Positions 26,240-62,173 of a DNA stretch of 64,000 nt are shown piece by piece. Position numbers and translations under genes: made by a program. Position 1 is the first letter of the stretch. Every line of letters begins with the position of its first letter. Under the pieces are notes generated by a model. It saw nothing but the letters and a program-made list of their open reading frames with translations, was not told the origin of the DNA and did not search any database. Source of the stretch: Saksenaea vasiformis B4078 (Eukaryota; Mucoromycota; Mucoromycetes; Mucorales; Saksenaeaceae); NCBI GenBank assembly GCA_000697055.1, contig JNDT01002381.1, positions 1-64,000 on the forward strand, read 5' to 3'.

Positions 26240-29200
26240 GTGACTCATTTGGATATGAACGACGAAGACGAAAGACGGTCCTCACTCACAACGTTCAACT
26301 TTGAAGCACCACCAGATCATGAAGACAGTGAAGGTGTGCTGTCAAAGCTGTTTGTTAAAGTCAGGTCTGCTGTCTCTGGTCCTTCGTCTGAAGATCATAT
26401 TATACCTAGCCACGACTCTGGTGCATCTCTATCTTCTGTGCATAAATCTGAAAGCACGTCCGCATCGTTATGTTCTCGTGCAGACGACCTCATTGCACCT
26501 GCTGCAGCAGAAATACACACTGAAGAACAAACGTTAGCCCCTTCTTCATCGTCTAGTTCAAGTCTTCAACGACAGATCTATGTAACTACACCTACTCCTC
26601 CCGTTTCTTCAAAAGACTCAGTTGTCGTCAACTTCCATGCGTCGTCGTCGCACTTTGACCCCTCCCGCACTACAGTAGACCAGGATGCGTCGTCTGTGTT
26701 GGCACATGCATCCATCAGCAGATGCTCACAGGATGAAAGTCATACGGTGGCAAGTGCGTCCGATTTTGCACTTGGCACTCCCATCCGTAAAACGATATCG
26801 AATGATAGCGATTCTCAATCAGTGATAACGACCTTTTCTATATCCACGTCCAATTCTCTGGGTAGAATCCTTGCTCGCCTTCGAGGGCACAAAAGTGATA
26901 AACAATATTGGATGCCAGACGAACAATGCAAGGAATGCTATAAGTGTCGGAAGCCTTTTACATTATTGAGACGGCGACATCATTGCCGAGCATGTGGTAA
27001 GCGGAAAGAAGCGACACCCGTGAACCCTGTTCAATGTCTTATTTTGTGGTAGGTCAAATATTTTGCTCCAAATGCGCATCACACATTATCTCTGGCAAGT
27101 TTTTCAAGCAAAAGGGGCAGGTGCGCGTATGCAACTTTTGTTTTTCAGAGCTACGATTTGGTGATACCTTGTATCCCTCGGGTACGGATCCGCCGATGCC
27201 GAAAACGATTGTGCAACAAGAAATCAGCCAATACCCTGAGGTGATTCCATCGCAACAACCACCTCTCACCGCACCAAAAATGCAGATACCAACCACCGCA
27301 TTCAAAAAGACGAAAACAGTGTACGGAGGGGACGATGCAACCACATTTGCTCTCGAGATACCGACTCACTCCAATTCATATCGAAATCAACTACAGGGAG
27401 ATATGCATCAAACAAGCAGCTCACGCACAGGAGCAGTTGGTGGCTCCGGAGACGAACAAGATAGTAGTTTTAAACAGTTTCTCGATGTCAGCGCGTCATT
27501 ACTTAAATCGCATTCTCGATTCAACACATCGTCCTCTGCACCTCTTGAAGATACATGCCACATGCCAAGTGGAACTTCACCAGGCGGTGGAAATCTAGCA
27601 TCCACGAACTCTATGTATGTCGATCGTGGAGGAGGAACCGTAGTAGCCGAGAGTGAACTAAGCGCATTTACCGGCCATGACGAGGTGGATGGAAATCTAT
27701 GTGGACTTCGAAGTCGTTCAAACTCTATGCAGAGGCTAAATCGCACCCGGTCAACCAACGCCAACATGAAATCGGACCAACCCAAGGGAAAACTATCTCG
27801 CGAATCCGCTGGAAGTGATGATGAAGCATGGGACACCCGACTACGAGCAAAGCGCATCGAAGAGCTTTGGGGCAGCACGAACCCAAGGGAACGCATACTA
27901 CCGTTCCGACGACCGAGCGTTACCACTACTGGACGTCTTAAGAGTCGGGTAAGAAACATGCAGGTTGTGACAGCTGGGCTTCCCAATACGGACTATTCGC
28001 AATGTGACGCATGCTCGCCGAATCCTCTGCTTTCACCTTATGCAACTGAGCCGTCTGCACAAGATCAGACGATCAAGTCAAGGTTACTGACACCCAGGCC
28101 CAGACGCATTTCTGCCCCACCACCTAATGTGGAGCTTAGCTACAGCGCTATTCTTCAGGCTCGACATATGTTGAGACAGCTTATGCAAAGTGCTGAACTG
28201 GATGAGCTTTCGGAGCAAGATAAGACTGTTTGGGAAGATGCGATTGTGAACTTGTTATTGAAGGTTACAGACAACGTCCGCCCGGATGTACGCGCAGGGG
28301 ATGATATGGATGTACGTCATTACGTAAAGATCAAGAAAATACCCGGCGGTGTACCTTCCGATAGCTTTTACGTGAAAGGTATTGTGTGTTCCAAAAATGT
28401 AGCGCATAAACGAATGGTGCGCAACGTATCGAATCCTCGTATTCTGATTCTGCTCTTCTCGCTTGACTATTCGAGAGTGGAGATGGAGAATCAGCTGCTT
28501 TCCATTTCGCCTGTACTCTCCCAGGAACGTGAACATCTCAGCAAATTGGTCGGACGCATTGTAGCACTCCGCCCCTCTTTGCTACTTGTCAAATCAACCG
28601 TATCACGGTTGGCATTGGAATTTCTACTAGATGCCAATATCCCGGTCATCCACAACGTCAAATACAGCGTGATCGAGGCCGTAGCACGATGTACACAAGC
28701 AAGCGTGATTGCTTCTGTGGATAAGTTGCAACATGGACTATCGTTTGGCCGATGCGGTGCCTTTGAAATTCGAACAATGATGCATGAGATGATACCAAAT
28801 CGTCGCAAAACTTACCTGATTTTCGACGATTGTCCAGCTGAACTCGGTGGCACCATCGTCCTTCGCGGCGCATCAAATCAGACGTTACAAGTGATTAAAA
28901 GGCTGATCGACTTTATGGTATTTGTAGTCAATAACCTGAAGCTTGAAACGTCTTTGTTACGGGATTCGTTTGCTAAGAATCGAGGCCTGGAAGACCTTCA
29001 GCGTGATGAGGTGCTGCGAGAAAGACAGCGTTCGCCTTTAGTCCCTGTCGACAAAGCTGATGAAGTCAGCCCAGAAGCTCGGTCTATCGAAGAAAAGGGA
29101 GATGACCATCCAAGTCCCCTTGATACATTGATTGACATGTATCAAAACACCATGCTATCGGCATCGCTCTATGTTCACTTTCCTGCACCTTATTTGCTGA

Positions 29201-32200
29201 AAAGTTTGAAGGAGACGGAGGATAGATTGGCAGTATTAAATCCATCCCGTCGGCCATTCCGGACTAATGATATCTTATCAACATCACCAGCACGAACCAC
29301 ACCTGACCGCCAGTTATGTAGTAGTGAGATGACGCGGTCGGAGCAAAGCGAAATGGCCATGAACGCAGAGTATGAACATTTGGTTGTGAAGCAGCATCAG
29401 TTAACGCGGGCGCGGCGAGATGCCTGTATTGCTGACACGCCAGAGTACATTAATCCGTTTTATCAGCAAAACATCGTTGTCCTCTACTTCAATGTCTGCA
29501 TTCGAACCGCTGTACCTTGTCAAGGTCCAGAAGTCCGTATATTCGAGTATTATCGCTATCCATCGGATAGAACACTTGGCCAATATCTTTTGGAACTTTT
29601 CGCCGATGCTAAGCAACAATGCAACTCCTTCATGTGTGAGCACACTATGTTCAACCATTTTCGATCCTATGTTCACGGCGACGCTAAGATTAATGTAATG
29701 CTTAATCGCTTCCCATGTCCGCAACCAGGGATGTCGGACAAGCTGCTGATGTGGAGTTATTGCAATGAATGCAAGAGGCCGACGCCTGTAGTTCCTATGT
29801 CAGAAAACACGTGGAATTACTCGTTTGGAAAGTTTCTAGAGATCATGTTCTACCAGACAGGCATCCATTGCCGCGCCGATATATGCCCTCACGACATTGC
29901 GAGACATCATGTTCGTTACTTTGGGTACATGGATCATGTTGTTCAGTTTGCCTATGATCCTATCGAATTATTGGAAGTTGCCGTTCCGCCTATGAAACTG
30001 TTTTTGCTTAGTCAAGTGCAGATAGATATAAAGGAAGCCGAGCTCAAAACGCTGAGGAACAAGATTAATAAGTTCTATCAATCTATCAACGAACGGAACA
30101 AGGCGTTCCCATTCGATCTCGTAGATCCTCGAAAACTTGAAGCATGTAAAGCTGAATTGCAGGCTATGTCGAATCGTTGCGTTGGTGAAAAGAAACAAAT
30201 GTTGCAGCAACTTCAGACGATCTATGTCAAGTCGGACCCCAGCGACACGCTATCATTGAACTGGGTACGGCGTTTACTCTACCACGAAGTTAGTCAATGG
30301 GAACTGGATTATGCTGAACTTGTACGGACCTATCTTCAGCCAGAGCGTGAGCTGAGAAAAAACCTACGCAAGATCTTTCCGGCCGACACGCCACTTGCAA
30401 TAAATACAGATGATGAACGAGCAAAACGTGCGACAGAAGCAACAGACTTGCCTTTGTTAGGCATTGGACTAGATGATGAAAGTGGAGAGGGTATAGATGG
30501 CACGAACCATTTCATAGATTGTGAAAACATGCCTATGTTATCGAGTTCACCAACGGGAGATATGTATGGGCGAGAATTGCTCAGCACCCCGGATGATGTT
30601 TTCTTGCCCCGCGAAGCCCGACGAAAGTTGTCGCTGGAACTCATGCGTGAACTCAATGCAAAATTCAAGACGGAGGATGCAGTGGATAACAGACCAGATA
30701 CAAGTTATTTGAGAGCAAAAAGCCCTGGACTCACTGGAGCACAGATACCATCTCGGATACCTCAGCCAACCAACAACAGTAACAACAAGTCGGGCCTATC
30801 GCCGTTGGCAACAGACGTAAATGCCCTTCAGCCGAAGTCGTTTGATACGGAAAGCATACAGGATATTACACGCGAAAAGAAATCGATGTCAAGGTCATTG
30901 CCTCGCTATTCATCACATGTCCCGCTATTTCCAAGAAGCCAGTATATCGACATGGACCCAACACGGCGAAAGACCCAGGGTGACATGAGACGAGGGGTCG
31001 TACCGCGCGATCGATCGTTTCGTTCCCGGTTACCGCGCAAGAAGACGTTTATTCAAGTCTACAAACGTGCCAATGACCTTGTGCGAGAAGATATGGATGA
31101 TGAATTTTTGCTGGATTTAGACGATGCAACAGATGATCGCGAAGAAGACCAAGTTGACTACTTTTCACCTATGGCGCCTTATACCAATGGCTTTTTGGAT
31201 AGCCGAAAGCGGTCGGATCCAACGGCTGTGACAAATTTCAGCGCGGAACTTGAGCGGCATTTACCGTCTGCATTTGAGTTATTGGCACCTCCAGGGGTAT
31301 CCAAAGGTGTCTCCAAGTCCGGTTCTGCGCAAGAGACAGGCAATATTAATGATTCGACAATCATCGCGACGGGACAGGTCGTTCCGGGTGAGCCCAAACA
31401 TTCACCAGAGAAGAGTTCCTTCATGAAGACGATTACAAATTTTTTGACGGACGTGAGTGTTACACATCTTTTGCCATTAGAACAACCACTGTAAGTATGA
31501 TTGGATTATACCAACTTCATGCATATTCATTCTTTCTTTAATTAGACAACCTACCGAGCATATATTACCGGAATCATTAGTGGTAGTGCGGGAAGATGAG
31601 CCTAGCACCATCATCGCATACACGCTCAACTGTGACGATTATTTGCAAAAGATGCGCGAAATTCAAGAGACAATGGCTGAAGATGCATCTGATGACGGCA
31701 CGCTTCTTCCTTCTGTCTGCGGTCTTACTCCAGATGATGCGTCTACTCCAGCAAACATACAAGAGACACTTCTACGAGAATCTGGAACACATATGCGTTA
31801 CAGTAAAGTGAAATGATGCAGAATATGTACTTAGTAAAACCTTACATATAGACTTTTCCGACGGAACGACCAAGTTCTTCTGCAAGATCTTTTTCTCAGA
31901 ACAGTTTGATGCTCTCCGCCGTAATTGCGGATGTGATGAGAGTTATATCACGTCTATGTCCAGTTGTGTCCAGTGGGACTCGTCAGGCGGGAAATCAGGA
32001 TCTGCGTTTCTAAAAACAAAAGGCAAGCATTGGGAGAAATCGAATGTCCTTTCTAATTATGCGTGTGTTTGTAGACGATCGATTGCTGATGAAGCAGATG
32101 TCACGTTATGAAATGGACGCCTTTTTGAATTTTGCTCCGGCGTACTTTCAGTACATGTCAGAAGCTTTCTTCCGAGAGGTACCAGGAGGAAATTGGCCAT

Positions 32201-52566: not shown

Positions 52567-53187
52567 TTACTCAGTGCGAGCCTATGTCACAATAATCAGT
52601 TTTTGCACGCATTCGTGTCCTATGATAACTTACACCACGAGTTCTAATATCGTCCTCTCGGGAGCCAAGTTCCTCCTTCAATCCGTTATAAGGGTAGGTG
52701 CGTTGGACCTAAGAAATCGCGTGAATACCGCTAGTTTTCGCCTTGAACGATCTACGCAGAACTTACAACAGGTCTCTCGGGGTTATATTTGTAAATAAAT
52801 GCAGAAAAACCACCAAGCAGAGCAAAGAACAAGGTCAGTTGACCAAGAGCCTTGTAGGGACTGTATGTGTGAATATCAGGACCCCAGACACCGAGAATTT
52901 CATCTTCTTCATGGACCTATACTCATCTAATGAATATCGCGTTTCGGAAATGCCATGCAAAATACCGTCTCTCCAAAGTTACGTCTGTCCTGGTTATCCC
53001 ACCAGCCGAAAGGCGAGCGAAGCTGATTGCTGAGACGTGGCAAATTGGGGTAATCACCAATTTGAGGATCCTCTACAACTTCACCAGTGTGCAAGGTAGA
53101 TTGAGCACGAATGGCCATAACTCTGTTGTTGTTCGCGGCCAGAAGGCGTGCATTCAGTAGTCGGGCAGTTGTTGCGCGAAGGGCCAT
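52567..53187 (-). CDS. NDUFB8: NADH:ubiquinone oxidoreductase subunit NDUFB8 (ASHI)
   Basis: It is an accessory membrane-arm subunit of mitochondrial complex I. The first exon (from 53187) has a basic, Arg-rich mitochondrial presequence (MALRATTARLLNARLLAANN) and DPQIGDYPNLPRLSNQLRSP. After an intron of about 65 bp follow EDEILGVWGPDIHTYSPYKA and one membrane helix (LTLFFALLGGFSAFIY). Further exons give TYPYNGLKEELGSREDDIRT and ARTE before the stop at 52567-52569. The PNLP, EILGVWGPD and YPYNGLKEELG motifs are those of NDUFB8. Length and order fit. Intron signals are good. Confidence 0.85.
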
Positions 53188-53709
53188 GCTGAGAGAGGGG
53201 AGGAAAAATAATAGTGTAGTTTGCGAATATTGTCAAAGCGAGAATTTCGGGGGACTAAAGGACAACTGTCACGCCCAGTGACGTCAACCACTCATGAAAA
53301 GCGGGTCTTCAGCCAACCTTACCTACTTACTAGCAGGCGTGGTGAAAGGAATCCCGCGAAGACATTCGCGTTTAGAGCACAAATGAGAGTAGCATAGTGC
53401 TTTCATGCCACTACCCCTGCACCATGCTTTCAGGAATTTACTGTTTCATTTTGAGTTATGTGAGAGAAGGCAACATAGATGTAGCACTCTAAACCTCGCA
53501 CAATTTTCTATCGTGCAGTCTGCTTGGAAGATGCAAAGGTTGTTTTGAAATTATGTATGGTGAGCGCGGTGAGAAGAGACCACGCTGATGTCGTCTTTTA
53601 AGAGCACTCATGAAAATAGCAGATTTTGAATACACATTTGCATCATCTCAATACTGAGCAAGTGTCTACACTCGAATTAGTACCCGATAAGGAAAAAAGT
53701 AGTGCTTAC
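53188..53709. other. Spacer between NDUFB8 and the Fanzor gene
   Basis: No gene is seen. On the right it is the 3' flank of the minus-strand Fanzor. In TnpB/Fanzor loci the guide RNA commonly overlaps or follows the 3' end of the nuclease gene, so this is the place to look for it. A palindromic gcttactcagtaagc lies at 53704-53718. Confidence 0.4.
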
Positions 53710-56700
53710 TCAGTAAGCGCCCTGCTGGGCGGTGCGCGCTTCGAACCGTGATTGGTTGAAGGGCAAAAGTCTGTCGAGCTCGTACGCGCTCGTTTGCTTG
53801 GCATTAAACGGTGCAAGAGGGCTGCCATCTACAGAAACGACCATGGAAGTACCTTTCAAAGCGAGGTTGTTTGCAGCATTTTCATCTCTATTCATGGTGC
53901 TGCAGCCTTTGACAAGCGTACAACACCGTGGATTAACACATTGGACAGCATCATTGCTTCGCCTAAATCGACCATCGGTCGTTCGATATTTCTGTAACTG
54001 AAGTGGTTTTAAGCACCAGTGGCAAGTTCGGCTCGTATTTAACTCATTGACTGTGATCGCCAGACCGTTTCGCCGTTGTTGTGCTCGGAGACGCTTGGTC
54101 CCTCGGCGTGCATGACATTTTATCATGCTGTTTTTCGGCTGCCAATGTCCGTAAAAATGGACGGCGGGTTGAGAAGATACTGCCGCTGGAAAAAGTTCCC
54201 GTTCTGTATCCGCTAATCGTTGGTAGGTTTTGAGAGTACGAATCTCTCTTGTACGCTGTTCTCTGTCGATTCGCCTTTTTTCTGTAGTTGTACTCTCCTA
54301 TCCTACTTGCTTGATTCGTTCCCTGCGTAGGCGATGTTGGTTCGAAAAAGTAGCGTGATTGACGTATGATGCCCGCAGGTTCCATGTAGCGTATTCGTGC
54401 ATTTGGTGTTCGTCAGCTTTCCCCTCACAAACGTGATGAATCTGCTCTATCAGATTACCAAATGTTGAGATCGCTGTCGTTGCTGTTTTCTTGATTCCGG
54501 GATCAACTCCACAGACCGGGGTGGAAGCGGTGCAGAATAGCTTTCTCGCAGCAGATATCATCTAAAAGCTTGAATAAGTATCCCGATGGCAGAATAAATT
54601 TTAACTCACTTGATCAACGTGGCCTTCAGTGATCACTGCATTTTCCGGCAATTGCGTTTGCTCCCTTTTTGCCCGCTTTTTCCGTTTCCGTCGTCGACGG
54701 CGTCTAGTTTCAGTGGCCTCCTCCTTTCGCTTTCCCTTCTTTCTCATGTCCTGTTTCATCTTATTTAATTGATAGCGTTCTCGGCGGGACTTTTTCAGTT
54801 GATCTTCCAATTGAATCGTAACAAGTTGCTTGGCTCGGATCTCCTTGCGAATCTCCTTTAGAATCTGATATTTTGCAGGATTTCGACGTTTGGTAGTGTA
54901 CCGATTGTATACCATGCGGTCCTTCTCCAGAGCTTGGATTGTTTTCCGCAAAGGTTTCAGCTGTGTCTCCAACCGATGAATTTGTGCGCAATTGGCGCTG
55001 ACTCTTTCTTCTAATCGAGAGCTGCTCAACGGTATCCGTGCAGAGGACTCGGAGGGTGCTGATGTAACTCGCTGTGTGTTAAGTGCCGAAATCTGGAATC
55101 GTCTGCTCTGGTCAATATCACCCATCAGGCGCACCGTCCATTCGTTTACGAAAACAAGTTTCCATCTAAACGAGAGATGTCGGCGTTTCATCAACTGTTC
55201 GATCTTCCGTAAATCGAAGAAGGCTCCAACCACCGCATCCTTCCGTGTTCGGGATTGGAACTCGCTGGTGATGAACTCTCCTTCAGTGGCAGTCGGGATT
55301 TCGTACATATCGCCCATAATCTTGTATATACTATCTGCCGATAAAAACAGGCTCCATTTGGCACTGGTATCAGCTGACAACTTGTTTATTCTGGTTTCCA
55401 TGCCGACGATCTGACTGATGGTATTGGATAGTGCTGCGATGGGTAGAACTGTAAGGACGTGCTTCATTGGTGGGACATCGGTCTCGGCCCTACGAGGCAC
55501 ATAGGGTCGAAGGAAGTTAGCGACCTTTGCTGCTACGTGTTTCTCTTTGGCAGTCAATGTCGTGCCTTCATACGCGGCATCTGCAATGTCGCTAGCTGTG
55601 ATAGTTCGACGGATCTTAGGAGATTCGACCAACATTCGAACGATGGCGACTAAGGCACGAATGATCCGAGCTGATGTCTCCTTGATACGTGCAGCAGTCT
55701 GTAAACTTGTCCCTGGAGACTCTTCGGGATCCTCGTCTTCACTATCATTAACAATGTCTTCTTCCATTTCGTCCATCACATAACCATCATATTGGTCTAC
55801 TATTGCTGGACCTTTGCCCTTTGGGTTTCCTCTCTTTTCCTCCTTTTCCAAACATTCGCTTGGTAACGTCTCTGTTATCTTCTGCTGAATCTTATTAAGT
55901 ACTTGAGAAGGACGACCATTCGCTGTGGCTGTTGCGAGTTGAGAAACCCAATAGAATCTGCTGTGTCGCAGCTTTCTTCCCCTGTCGGAACGCTTACTCT
56001 TCTCCTTCTTCTCCGACTTTTCTTGTGCTTTTTCCTTGGTAAGTTCTATGTATCTACGCATCCTCTGTGGTGCAAGGTTGACGCGAAGTAGGAGACGGAT
56101 AGCGTTTGTTAGCGATCGCTGGTACAAGGATCCGTGGTACATATTGTTAGATGCTGTATAGAGCTCCTTTATAGAATGTGCAAGGAAGGACGATTTGACT
56201 ACATCCGGCTCGCGTTGCACCAGAGAAAGCAAGGCAGAATTGATCTTACCCCATGATGATGATGCACTACAAACGCAACGTTAGTTTTCAAGTTAACTAT
56301 TAGTTAGAAATCCTACAACTACTGTACATTAACAGAGCCCACGCAACGGTAGAACATGTTTTGAAAATGAAGAAACGTGAATATGTCGGAATCACGGACA
56401 TCGTCCGCACTTTTGAACGGCAACGAGGAAATTTCGTGAGTCGCTCCAATGTCGCCAAACTGGAAGCCAGCAGGGAAAACATGGGTGAAGTTTGCTTGTC
56501 GGTCGTAAATCTCATATCTGAGGAATTCATAGACGTTACCATGGATGACCTGGTAAAAAACACCTTAAATACGAAGCAAAATATAACAATGTACATACCA
56601 TATCGGCGAAATGGGACAGTACCCGTCCCATAGCGTTCATAATTCGTGAATTTCTGTCCTGCTCCTCTAGCAGCCGACTCTTCATTATCTCGAAGTCGAT

Positions 56701-57947
56701 TTCGGGCCGAACAATGTTTCGCAAGCTTGTAGTTGCTGTTCGAATGTACTCCTTCCGCCTTTCTTCGTCATCATCATCATCATCATCATCATCGCTGGGA
56801 TCCTCGCTCCCGTCATCATTGGATCCTTTATCATCGCCCTCATCGTTGCTGACTTCAGCTTTTCGCTTGGCACCTTTACTTGGACCAGCAGCATCCTGAA
56901 GTTTGTTCCATCGGCTTTGTTGCCTCCGATAAAATGCAGTAGCCATTGAATTCCATATGGGCAAGGGGTTTGAGGGTCCTTTTAGTCGCTGTTCCAAAGC
57001 ATAACTACTGGCTGTTGTTCCATACTTTGTCTTTAGCGTCTTGTAAACATTATCGGAAGTTCCGCTACTTGTGATAAGCCCTCTTGGAACCCTTTTCCTA
57101 TTCATACATCTTTCCTTGAACTTTTGCAAAAGTGCTTCGGTTGGTGGTTTTCTTCTTGTGATACGTGCCCATTCACTGTTCAGTCGTTTCTTTCTATTTA
57201 AGACACGGTCAATATAGGATGAATAGATCCTATACTATTTACATTCCTTGCCGCAGCTCGGACTGGATCTGATCATCGGTTACGCCAAGTGCAGTTGGAG
57301 CTTTCCTCTTCTTTTCAACCTGGGGATCCTTTTTGGTCGCAGCAGGACGCATCATAGGGGTTTGACCGGTTGTACGTTTTGGCCTTGTTGCTCTTGTGGT
57401 GTTGGAATTTGTAACCGTCATTGCGTACCAGCGGCTCTGCGCGGAGTAGGAATCAACCTCATGCAACAATGAAATATTGTAGTTGGCATTTTTGTTTCCG
57501 ATAACTTTTGGTTTCTGTTTTGTGGAAAATAGAAACACTTGAATATCATATGCCTTTGCGATAGCAATCAGATGAAGCAGGTTATTTGCGGGGATTGTCT
57601 GGTTATTAGGTAATAGCACAGAGATACCGCTCTGTTTGAGATTCAAGCATTCTGCAACAATGACCGCCAAAGCTGCCTCTCGAGAACTCGAGTCATCAAT
57701 CTGAGAGATAACTCGAATACCTCGTCGCCGTAACCACCAGAGAGCCTTTCGATAATTTTCTTTAGATATTGGTTGTCCTCTCGCTGTAGCCACCGCATTC
57801 TGCAGTTGCTGTTCGTAGTTTGGAGTTGGATCTCGGTTGCTGATGCCACGAAGGTCCAGGTTGGCATCTCCGTGAAATCTTAGATCAGGTAGCTATTATT
57901 GAACATTATCAATATGTGGATCCATATTATGATACTCGTTTTACCAT
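53710..57947 (-). CDS. Fanzor-type RNA-guided nuclease, large and apparently intact
   Basis: Seven exons can be joined in frame on the minus strand: 57945-57947 (ATG only), 57243-57892, 56599-57193, 56323-56549, 54610-56266, 54307-54561 and 53710-54255, together 1311 codons. All introns are GT-AG and 48-56 bp long. The C-terminal third has RuvC-I CGVDPGIKKTATTAIS, RuvC-II ITVNELNTSRTCHWC, a Cys4 ribbon (CHWC and CVNPRC) and RuvC-III STMNRDENAANNLALK, so the D-E-D triad is complete. The central region has a charged helical section (KPLRKTIQALEKDRMVYNRY, Arg/Lys-rich) and the N-terminus an acidic run encoded by GAT repeats. A TAG at 54298-54300 lies in a 51-nt intron (54256-54306). Fanzors are eukaryotic TnpB relatives cutting DNA under RNA guidance. 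The first 180 residues form a separate domain, weakly OTU-like. Confidence 0.8.
56763..56797. repeat. (ATC)n tract coding an Asp run in the Fanzor
   Basis: Trinucleotide repeats on the plus strand (tcatcatcatcatc) read as consecutive aspartates on the minus strand, in the acidic linker of the Fanzor. Length differences between strains are likely. Confidence 0.85.
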
Positions 57948-58885
57948 GACGAGATTTTAGGGAGGAAGATAAAGAAGCCCAACTGTCAATGTAGGTAAAA
58001 CAGATAAATCACAATTCATTGTCTTGATGTTGTCATCATGGTTATCCTGTTTCCAAAATGGGAATCTTTTTTGAATCAATCTAATATTGCAGTGAAAACC
58101 TGACGATTTCTAGCTGCTTTCGACCTCTACCAGCTGATAAATTGGTGTATACGGTGATATTGACGATCTTTGTTTTGCCTGAACGGACTATTTTCTATGT
58201 GTGCTTTTCCACTAAATCCTATGATGAAGCGGCTTTTAGTCCAACCTGCAGCTAACAGGTTAACTCAACTCAGAACAACTTTATTTTACTGGCTTCCCTC
58301 AAGTATTACAATGAGTCAACTCGAAGCCGACAGGTTCAACTCAGACTCAGACAGTAACCTCTGAAAAAGCCTTCACCAAAAGTGTTAGAGTATTGCAGAA
58401 AACTTTTCGCGATACTTTGAATAAAGAACCATCGATGCTATTGGTACAGCGCTGTCAGTACAGACCATATTTGCCTTCCACCCTCTCTTCTACCCCAGAA
58501 CTAGTTGTACTGGCTATGATGATCCAGTTGCATCTATTTCTCTTTCGTTCTTTTACCTTCTGTAATACACTGCATGCATAGATGAAAGAGTTTGCTCTGC
58601 TTGTTGAAAGCAGAGAAAAAGTTTAATCGCAAAAACAAACCAAACAAGAATTCTTACTATCTAGAGGACGATTACATCCCAAGCCAAAATGGTCATGCCT
58701 GTTCATGGATTTCGAAATTTCATTTTTATATTCAGTGTGTTTGTCATTATCTTCAACGTGTGTTTACCGCAGACAAATTTTTCGGTCGTCGTTTTCTTTC
58801 CTTTTTACTATTATTATTATTATTATTATTAGCGATTTTGTAAGGACAACAATTACGAGAATGGCAAGTTAGTTCTATTCGTATC
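57948..58885. other. Spacer between the Fanzor start and the Crypton-type fragment
   Basis: The two genes are divergent, so promoter sequence of the Fanzor lies at the left end. I searched for the Crypton tyrosine-recombinase core on the plus strand, since it should precede the GCR1_C part, and found no recognisable R-HxxR-Y motifs. A (TTA)n run lies near the right end. Confidence 0.45.
58812..58834. repeat. (TTA)7 microsatellite
   Basis: attattattattattattat is an uninterrupted trinucleotide run just upstream of the Crypton-type fragment. Confidence 0.9.
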
Positions 58886-59856
58886 ATGAACGGCTTCTCC
58901 GGCAACAAAGGCGATTATTGGCTACCGAGGAGTAATGTTTGCCCGCCAGAAAGCCTCCAAAGGAAGGTGTTTCCAAAAGCAGAGGGCTGGCTGGCGCGAG
59001 GGCGCTCTCGCGAGTGTGAATACTCCACCTGCGCGGAGGCATCTCTGTCGTTACTGATCACTATGCGACGGATAATCCTACAAGATGCAGTGATGTTTCG
59101 GGTGGAGCATGGCCACAACCCTTTCTTCAATCATGTCCTCTTCACCTACCCAGAGTTCTTGGCATTTGAACGTAACCTCCTATCGACCGTCCAAACCGCG
59201 CAGGAACCAGCAGATATTCTGGTACGCAGAGCTATGCCTTTGGTTAGCGATCAGCTGCAAGTGCTGAGTGCAAAGGTAGATACGAATCAGCATATATTAC
59301 AGTACCTTCTCAGCAACGACAGCCGGAATCCATCAGTTCCTACTGAGACTATCACAGACGATATCCGTGGATTAAGGCATGACATGCAAATGCTGAGACG
59401 AGCGTGCTCAGTGTTTGCAACTGGAACATCAGTAGCAGAATTACAACAGCAAGCACCGTCTCCATTGCCCAGTTCAGCTACCACACAGCGTCCACGTTGC
59501 TATCAGCTGGACAGGAACATCAGCACAGTTTTCGACTTGTGGAGAGAATGGTCTGAAGGACTGCGATCAGACTCGCCTTCAGTTATGGAACTTGACAGGA
59601 AATTTGGAACCTCATGGAGATCATGTCCTAAAGGTTTGCTACATCAAACCATCTTTGCAGTGACATGTTATATACTAACTTTTGTTTGCAGAACATCAGT
59701 TTTACTCAAGATGTTTGACTATTATACATGAAATCCACCGTATTGCTCGGAGCAGCGGCATAGACATTAAGGAAGCCGTGAAAAGATTAGACGCAAGACT
59801 TCAGGAGAACAAATGGTCGCTTAGTAGATTGACGAAGGAATTGCGCAAGCAATAAA
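58886..59856 (+). CDS. Crypton-type protein fragment with GCR1_C DNA-binding domain
   Basis: The first codons GFSGNKGDYWLPRSNVCPPE and LQRKVFPKAEGWLARG correspond to what normally follows the tyrosine-recombinase domain in fungal Cryptons. ILQDAVMFRVEHGHNPFFNH and FTYPEFLAFERNLL continue the pattern. The last part is a GCR1_C domain: CYQLDRNISTVFDLWREWSE, SPSVMELDRKFGTSWRSCPK and, after an intron at 59634-59691, EHQFYSRCLTIIHEIHRIAR to a stop at 59854-59856. The exon join restores the WR...FYSR motif. The recombinase core is missing upstream, so this is a truncated Crypton or a domesticated GCR1_C protein. It is divergent from, and 1 kb away from, the Fanzor start. Confidence 0.7.
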
Positions 59857-62173
59857 AACTGCCATCTATTATCGTTGCTTTTACTACATTTTGACTCTAT
59901 TACGAGTGGGTAATTTTGCAAACTACATCCATACATGGAAGTACACTTAAGTTATTGAAGTGTCTATCAGTCAAAGAAGATGTAGGAATCGTTGTACACA
60001 ATCAAATCAAGTTGGTCAAGCATGAAGCCTGCCCCAAGCTGCATTACTGAGAGTCCAATTCGGCAACCACCTTTTTTTCACATTCAGATTATAAGCAAAA
60101 AGGGACTTTCAAGGTCAGATGTGACCCCGACCGTAAAATACCGTGGTATTTTGAACGTCTACAAGCCAACTGGCTCAAAATACCGAGTGTTTGATTAAAT
60201 TTGTTGACTCAGGTCACAAAAATCTGTAGACTCCGACCGATGATACTGTAAGGCGCGTGCCCAAAACAAGAAAATCGTACGTTTTATGACCAAGAGCATG
60301 AAACCAAGTCTTTTTGTATGTAATCGTCTGCTGAATTAGATGACATGCCGAAGAGCGACTTTGGTCGATTGATGGGTAGAGCTGTAACAGTCGATGGTTC
60401 TGTGCATGATCGAACAACGCTGGGGCCACCTCGATGGTCGTGTTCGCGAGCAGGGCGTGCTCTTGGTTTAGCCAAGTTGTCGCGAAGTGCAGCAATAATA
60501 CGTGAAAGCATGAAGGATGTCTGAAATGTACAAATGTAAGAAAATGGATGTTGGTTTTAATAATACAGGTCGGTTCCATTCGTTCAATGTCCCTTTTTTT
60601 ATATCTTAAAGCGAATCGGCTCACCAATCGGATTGGCCGACACAAGTGGCGTGTTTGATTTGTCATTACGTCGCCGGTGTTCGATAACACCCCACACTTT
60701 AACATATGATCTGCCCGTCCGTGGAACCAGAAGAAAAAATGTATAGTATACCCGTGATAGCAAGTACGGACTTCGGCTCCCCCATTTATTGGCACAACAT
60801 GAAACGCTAGGATATTTAGTACCTTAACCGAAGGCCATCCCGTCGCTATTATGGCCAAGGAAGAGACCCTGGAAATGACGTGTCTATAATAAATGAGGCT
60901 CCGTCTGCCTTGTCGCGTGTAAAGATGCCTCGCTTGCTCGCGTCTAGAAACTGTAAAAAGAACGAAATCATTAGGAACGAAAACACACACACACACACCG
61001 ACTGCTTAATTTCCGTGGTATTTCGGCCTGTATCCGCAATTACCGGATTGTTTGGTCTAAATCGGGAAAATATGAATCATCCGAGATTGAATCAATTACA
61101 CAGTAGCACACAGCCAATTGCTATTAAAAGTTGGAGTGAACATCTCGTGCTTTCAGCTAGCTGGAAGTAACTCAGTAATTCTGAACTATCACTGGGATTG
61201 AAAAGGACGAGAGATTTCCGGAATCTCCTGGTACATTCGGAGATCTTGCTTGATTTGAGGAAACGACAGCAGTTGCGTGATTCATTCATTCATCAAATAG
61301 GATTACGTCGAAGCATTTCTATTTTCACAGAACGGAGACCAACCGGGCCCCGGACAAGTAGTATGCAGCTACTACTATCCATGCCTTCTGTGGGAGGGCT
61401 TCCCGTTTACTAAGCAATTTACACCGACAGTTATAAGGTTGGCAGACACAGCATAAATGTGCATAACAGCAAGCAGCTGCATTACGTCTCTGATGCATGG
61501 ACCCATTGGGCCGAGAAACACTGCTAACTCCGGCACCATTGCAGGAAATGTAGAATCTGTGATGAAGTAGATGTATGGTACCCTCTTTCCTGCGATTAGG
61601 CTATTTCCACTCTCATGAGCAAACAAACAAGAGTGCTGGCATGTACAGCTTGCCTAAGAAATGGTTGTGGCTTCCTACAGGTCCTGTCTAATGCAGATTA
61701 CCAGCCCGGGAACCCGGAAGAAGTGACATGTCAGCTGCTGAGATACTTCACTACGCCTCTCATTAAAGCATCGTTCAGTACAGATGTGCATCAGTAAGAC
61801 AGTGGTGAAAATGGGACGATTTTAAAAAAAAAAAAGGGGGGGGGGGGCAGAGACTTCCACAATGCGCAAGCTGTTGATACCAAAAACCACCCTGCTCATC
61901 GTTTATTAGCACATGTGCTACACGATTACTCATACATTTTGCATCCAACAAGGACCGATATTTTCCCGGATGCATCGTTTCATCTAAAAAATCAATGATC
62001 GACTACACAAGCTAGAGATACAAAGAAAGTGCATAGCTTAATCTTCTTGATCTTATACCAACAAGTAATGAAACGCAATTTGTTGTGACCGTGGTCAATC
62101 AACATGCAGTACATCCTTCCTTTTTTTTTTCTTTTTTCTTCCTTCCTTTCTTTTATTCTTTTTCCAATAATCA
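59857..62173. other. Long stretch without a confident gene
   Basis: A 260-codon minus-strand frame (60214-60996) is the longest. One of its alternative frames has a well-formed exon start (polypyrimidine-CAG, then FLDASKRGIFTRDKADGASF near 60950-60890). Neither leads to a recognisable protein. A polyA-polyG run lies at 61826-61849 and a CA repeat near 60982-60998. Confidence 0.4.
60214..60996 (-). CDS. Hypothetical 260-codon open frame, doubtful
   Basis: The frame is long for this AT-rich DNA, but its composition (many His, Cys, Phe scattered, no domain pattern) and the presence of better-looking short coding stretches in the other minus frames (FLDASKRGIFTRDKADGASF; MLSRIIAALRDNLAKPRARP) make a single-exon gene unlikely. 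It may be the remains of a spliced gene. Function unknown. Confidence 0.2.
   Translation of the reverse strand: MCVCVFVPNDFVLFTVSRREQARHLYTRQGRRSLIYYRHVISRVSSLAIIATGWPSVKVLNILAFHVVPINGGAEVRTCYHGYTIHFFFWFHGRADHMLKCGVLSNTGDVMTNQTRHLCRPIRLVSRFALRYKKRDIERMEPTCIIKTNIHFLTFVHFRHPSCFHVLLLHFATTWLNQEHALLANTTIEVAPALFDHAQNHRLLQLYPSIDQSRSSACHLIQQTITYKKTWFHALGHKTYDFLVLGTRLTVSSVGVYRFL

Follow-up and report, generated by a model that had tools for sequence, protein, structure and literature searches.

The Fanzor nucleases of eukaryotes share with TnpB the fingerprint D-X(125,275)-[TS][TS]-X-X-C4-X(5,50)-RD (PMC3627910), and their catalytic glutamate is described as standing six residues before the zinc ribbon (PMC10711439). 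Published Fanzor1 proteins mostly have 600-700 residues according to one account (PMC11423790), and some reach about 800 according to another, which also lists Crypton among the Fanzor1 partners (PMC10711439); MCi-2A in Mucor is a precedent for a Fanzor that occurs together with a Crypton (PMC3627910). Here we analyse a Fanzor gene and the repeated element around it in the fungus Saksenaea vasiformis B4078, namely in the first 64,000 nucleotides of contig JNDT01002381.1. This whole stretch is called the window, its Fanzor copy W, and coordinates are those of the window unless a contig is named; C-numbers designate contigs of the same genome (G000, 38.7 Mb) and L-numbers the other loci compared. 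An earlier note, made from the letters alone, had read the gene as seven in-frame exons encoding an apparently intact protein of 1310 residues. In our view it is highly probable that the element around W derives from a Crypton, lacks terminal inverted repeats and has degenerated, and that it carries a giant Fanzor, most likely a Fanzor1.

The degeneration is seen at the last junction of the proposed gene model. The last two open reading frames are one frame split by a single TAG (54298..54300, minus strand, codon 1134), which lies inside the putative sixth intron 54306-54256. At its place, five of the six near copies (L009, L010, L011, L012, L013 and L014, which are 95.2-97.1% identical to W over the aligned gene) have a sense codon and an open frame; only L010 carries the TAG as well. 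The same place aligns as protein in nine distant copies (L015, L016, L017, L018, L019, L021, L022, L023 and L024) with 27-68% identity over their matched stretches, families of about 56-68% identity among them, and KRRIDREQRTREIRTLKTYQRL or a near variant is found in eight of them, L024 being looser. A sixth intron that is real in W, so that the TAG would be spliced out and the 1310-residue protein made, would have GT-AG ends, 51 nt and a kept frame in its favour, but its removal would also delete the first eight residues of the conserved KRRIDREQRTREIRTLKTYQRL. Moreover, GT and AG with a spacing of 45-60 nt that keeps the frame can be placed over 126 of the 233 codons tested in exon 6, 322 of 502 codons in exon 5 and 96 of 166 in exon 2. 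Since such fits are possible by chance over most of the codons tested, the one at junction 6 carries no weight, and we rejected the sixth intron as very improbable. Because the TAG falls after RuvC-I and ahead of RuvC-II, a stop precedes the glutamate, the zinc ribbon and the last aspartate. Hence, an intact gene was rejected too, and the proposal of a candidate active nuclease is not supported, because the frame is not uninterrupted through all RuvC motifs. The case shows that a nonsense codon can be mistaken for a short intron in fungal DNA and that comparing copies settles the matter.

The remainder of the gene model largely stands. The coding blocks on the minus strand (57947-53710) were confirmed with their coordinates and motifs, and the count of 1311 codons was reproduced by reconstructing the six junctions of the earlier note, i.e. 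introns at 57944-57893 (52 nt), 57242-57194 (49 nt), 56598-56550 (49 nt), 56322-56267 (56 nt), 54609-54562 (48 nt) and 54306-54256 (51 nt); removal of the first five leaves 3984 nt, which less 51 nt gives 3933 nt or 1311 codons. As shown here, the Fanzor gene consists of six exons and five introns: exon 1 (57945..57947) is the ATG alone, directly followed by intron 1; exon 2 (57243..57892) encodes the N-terminal part, which is without a Pfam match in W; exon 3 (56599..57193) and exon 4 (56317..56549, with the donor of its relatives at 56316) follow; exon 5 (54610..56266) encodes the middle part; and exon 6 (53710..54561) contains RuvC-I with D1066, RuvC-II with E1219, the zinc ribbon and RuvC-III with D1272, and closes with the last stop, TGA, at 53712-53710. 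The GT and AG at junctions 1, 2, 3 and 5 are kept in all seven near-identical copies compared (W included). Introns 1-5 are well supported because the diverged copy L019 (C445), which is 40-53% identical to W over three matched blocks, has five introns (58, 50, 52, 51 and 48 nt) at places homologous to all of them; this family also shares the ATG-only first exon with the GT donor right after it. Only the acceptor of the proposed fourth intron was retained. The position 56322, taken as its donor before, reads GC in all six near copies, and the GT at 56316 is present in all of them; the donor of L019 (51-nt intron) lies there, too. With this donor the frame has 1330 codons including the last stop, or 1,329 residues counting through stops, and shows a second in-frame TAG (56319..56321, minus strand, codon 493) that occurs in none of the six near copies. 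The donor at 56322 removes this TAG, and W might escape it by using that donor; at 56316, the sixth base of the donor is not the same in W as in the near copies.

All seven near-identical copies compared, W included, are broken. L009 to L014 each have frame-shifting indels and in-frame stops, counted in the frame of W, and L011 and L013 are additionally cut by contig ends; the partial copies L020 (87%) and L027 were left out of this count. The diverged L019 ends before RuvC-II. Before RuvC-II, 14 of the 15 fetched copies showing the place have, by eye, a glycine, and W and L010 have a cysteine. The ratio of non-synonymous to synonymous substitution rates (dN/dS) of the last exon was finite in two of seven between-family comparisons, with 0.10 (W-L021, dS 3.2) and 0.14 (L015-L021, dS 1.5), synonymous sites being saturated in the other five; dN was 0.22-0.32 in all seven. 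Together these values point to long past purifying selection on the last exon, under which the family kept the RuvC and zinc-ribbon fingerprint of the Fanzors. Among the near copies W, L013 and L014, dN/dS was 0.54-0.92, i.e. relaxed.

The assignment to the Fanzors holds on the motifs and on profile matches. RuvC-I reads VDPG with D1066, six residues stand between E1219 and the first cysteine of the zinc ribbon, and this ribbon has, by eye, the form CxxC and CxxxxC with RD 11 residues on; D1272 stands in NRD. The fingerprint cited above fits W with 155 residues between D and TS, the TAG codon counted. For profile searches we used an alignment (A1) of five members, W, L013, L014, L015 and L021, all of which match the profile of the TnpB-type zinc ribbon, TNB (PF07282), at E-values up to 1, the best with 7.1e-9 and W with 2.2e-4; L015 (32.7 bits) and L021 (36.1 bits) exceed its curated cut-off of 26.3. 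The NCBIfam model guided_TnpB matches one of the five (L021, E 5.5e-5, 22.6 bits where the cut-off is 100). When the A1 profile was compared with solved structures, SpuFz1 was the better of two matches, with the motifs aligned at E 0.52; among solved structures, the W proteins and L034 had no match, and L033 had two unrelated weak ones. A protein search with residues 740-1327 gave no match at E 0.001 (best 7986 candidates scored), and the N-terminal exon found one 204-amino-acid protein on a 1.1-kb contig. On viral contigs, 20 stretches fitted a pattern and none was confirmed. An OTU-like N-terminal domain was dropped as a candidate, since Pfam gave no support for it and only DUF4402 appeared, at 0.039 in two of the five members. 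From its carrier and its length, W is most likely a Fanzor1 rather than a Fanzor2: the repeated element with its Crypton-type remnant is a eukaryotic transposon other than IS607, and the 1,329 residues are about twice the usual Fanzor1 size, which bears out the remark of the earlier note that the protein seems large for the family.

Several observations weigh against this reading of W as a broken Fanzor. The sequence at RuvC-I is DPG in W, L015 and L021, but DPR in the two near copies L013 and L014; W itself stays below the TNB cut-off with 22.2 and 21.8 bits; and structure prediction was too poor to help, with a mean predicted local distance difference test score (pLDDT) of 34.6 for the last exon (AlphaFold2) and 39.7 for the N-terminal exon. 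If only the weak scores of W are considered, one may think of a protein that has RuvC motifs and a zinc ribbon and falls outside the TnpB/Fanzor clade, but the combination of DPG, shifted glutamate, four cysteines and RD, together with relatives over the TNB cut-off, makes this extremely improbable. Furthermore, several of the copies are found at the ends of contigs, where parts of them may be chimeras, and L010 does not differ from W at any position of 53960-54400, the TAG included. Its identity over the whole gene is nevertheless higher to L009 (98.5%) than to W (97.1%), so that the identical part points to gene conversion or to a chimera made in assembly. The TAG could then be an assembly or sequencing error, or it could be read through, leaving an intact gene; W has, in addition, no frame-shifting indel relative to the frame of the others, and each of the six others has one. 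Nevertheless, W sits inside a 133-kb contig, a second in-frame TAG appears at codon 493 with the donor of the relatives, and the other six near copies are likewise broken, so that we regard this explanation as unlikely. Finally, of the changes specific to W, 18 are silent and 26 replace a residue or create a stop, where neutrality would predict 3.43 to 1. Hence, part of the W branch seems to have remained under constraint, and the pattern of substitutions suggests that the decay of W began late.

The degenerate gene is carried by a repeated element of ~6.6 kb (53651..60250) with TACTG at both edges. At the Fanzor-side edge, the matches of L009, L010 and L012 start at 53650-53652, at TACTGAGC, and those of L014 and L020 at 53662 and 53681. 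At the far edge W, L025 and L026 share an end at ~60250, at ATACTGTA (one base different in L026), and L011, L013 and L027 end earlier, at 60112, 60144 and 60183. A search with the far flank brought no second match. Terminal inverted repeats were considered and rejected, as no inverted repeat pairs the two ends of the element. On the plus strand, opposite to the Fanzor gene, the element encodes the C-terminal part of a Crypton-type tyrosine recombinase (58886..59855), 303 amino acids in two exons with an intron at 59634-59691. This part matches GCR1_C (E 2.4e-19) and the NDC10_II profile at positions 235-316 of 317 (E 4.2e-8), and it aligns to residues 332-599 of an open frame of 661 amino acids on C604 (E 8e-38). 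The latter (L032, C604:99300-101700) is a Crypton-type recombinase that covers NDC10_II positions 7-316 of 317 (1.5e-59) and also has GCR1_C. The catalytic residues of such recombinases presumably lie upstream of the part matched here. For the catalytic part, 53001-61000 contains no supported match (one chance match at E 0.74), so the element does not qualify as an autonomous Crypton and was probably moved in trans. In another locus, L016 2596-3108 (C539), a diverged element has its Fanzor-side edge joined, at TACTG, to DNA that is 83% like 58923-58455 of the window; judged from this junction, it may be a nested insertion or a rearrangement, and the far side of the insertion was not found within 13.9 kb.

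From the last stop codon of the Fanzor gene to the element edge runs a strong terminal hairpin of 67 nt (53651..53717, minus strand), a candidate omegaRNA 3' scaffold or recombination site. The predicted fold of 53650-53770 (121 nt) has a z-score of -4.97, and none of 200 shuffled sequences was as stable; for 53650-53790 (141 nt) z is -2.94 with one of 200 shuffles as stable, and for 53660-53760 (101 nt), which cuts the stem, z is -1.10 with 32 of 200. Twenty pairs were predicted across five copies, with no two-sided changes and an unfavourable covariation term (+1.08), and covariation thus does not support the hairpin. Seven places in the genome match the 75-nt end, that of W being one of them. 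The hairpin could serve as omegaRNA scaffold, as recombinase site or in both roles. That it is a recombinase binding site alone, unrelated to any guide RNA, is a serious possibility, if short of an even chance: the module is kept with ~82% identity in L016, which has a coding sequence of far greater divergence and a Fanzor match that ends ~780 nt from the module; TACTG is found at both element edges; and in L028 near 4935 (C535) the terminal 15 nt of the module look, by eye, inverted relative to the other copies, as if a recombinase core had flipped. However, the hairpin extends from the stop codon at the Fanzor-side edge, which is where known omegaRNAs are described to lie (PMC10432273).

At and just outside this edge, 38 nt (53614..53651, minus strand) have one other match in the genome, with 95% identity, at L035 (C600:142627-142664), and W and L035 diverge on both sides of it. 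The flanks of L009, L010, L012 and L028 have no second match, and that of L014 is a dispersed repeat. Seen from the sequences, the 38-nt match may be a guide target, a donor footprint or a small repeat.

With at least 149 matches to TNB in its own genome (from 150 scored of 388 candidates), W is one member of a large set. Of the 149 matches listed, 131 are over the cut-off (by count of the rows), six of these only together with neighbouring matches, and the copy of W itself is absent from the list. The middle part of the protein (559 amino acids) gives at least 80 matching stretches, often several per locus (78 scored of 153 candidates). One of the TNB places, L033 (C419, 199-2514, minus strand), has an open Fanzor-like frame of 772 amino acids that exceeds the TNB cut-off (9.8e-8); its RuvC-I seems to read DPR. 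To judge from the few loci looked at, the TNB places would mostly be Fanzors, and a large Fanzor expansion in 38.7 Mb is probable. A genome with so many of them and an open Crypton-type recombinase frame is well suited to the question of how Fanzors serve their elements.

If the unbroken proteins of this kind behave like known Fanzors, they would bind an RNA made from the end with the hairpin, its guide would come from DNA that directly flanks the element, and matching DNA would be cut beside a short motif, which would favour the persistence of the element. W itself would make no complete nuclease, would owe its movement to a recombinase supplied in trans, and could at most supply RNA to other Fanzors. 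One may go further and propose an undescribed class of giant Fanzor1 (~1,330 residues, with ~680 extra ones before RuvC) that is spread by Crypton recombination, in which the hairpin serves as recombination site and omegaRNA scaffold at once, broken copies go on supplying guide RNAs to other Fanzors, and the 38-nt match on C600 marks a target or a former home; taken as a whole, this proposal is a long shot.

Among the neighbouring genes of the window, a frame resembling the complex I subunit NDUFB8 (52927-53232, minus strand, E 1.8e-6) adjoins the element. Farther away, at 26240-31494 on the plus strand, a FYVE zinc finger split over two open reading frames is followed by a Cpn60_TCP1 domain, an arrangement that we take to be that of Fab1/PIKfyve kinases.

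Among the described systems, the 'ghost' elements of SpuFz1 (PMC10432273), as portrayed there, resemble W in that the ends are kept, the nuclease gene is lost or broken and RNA could possibly be supplied in trans; they differ in that most of the coding sequence remains here and the RNA is putative. With Crypton elements W shares the NDC10_II and GCR1_C domains, the lack of any terminal inverted repeats found and a short common sequence at both edges, whereas the catalytic part was not found here and the element consists mostly of a Fanzor gene on the opposite strand. The MCi-2 family of Mucor circinelloides (Bao and Jurka 2013, PMC3627910) is likewise described as a Fanzor1 element without recognizable terminal inverted repeats, with a partial Crypton recombinase and fuzzy far ends. 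However, MCi-2A is reported to keep ~473 recombinase residues without the C-terminal ~200 (PMC3627910), while only the C-terminal part was found here, and MCi-2 shows 11-12 bp duplications (ATAATTNNNN(N)) (PMC3627910) instead of the TACTG edges of W, a comparison made by description only. SpuFz1 itself (Fanzor1 of Spizellomyces punctatus, PDB 8gkh) agrees with W in the order of the motifs, in the aligned stretch from the glutamate over the zinc ribbon to RD (E 0.52) and in being element-borne and multicopy. Differences are the five introns of W and the terminal inverted repeats, none of which were found here, and above all the size: SpuFz1 is described as 638 residues long and as having the first aspartate at 383 (PMC10432273), compared to D1066 of 1,329 here, hence some 680 more residues stand ahead of RuvC than in SpuFz1. 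With its 1,329 residues against the mostly 600-700 of published Fanzor1s, and with a five-intron layout that recurs in a second, diverged family, this family is worth a look.

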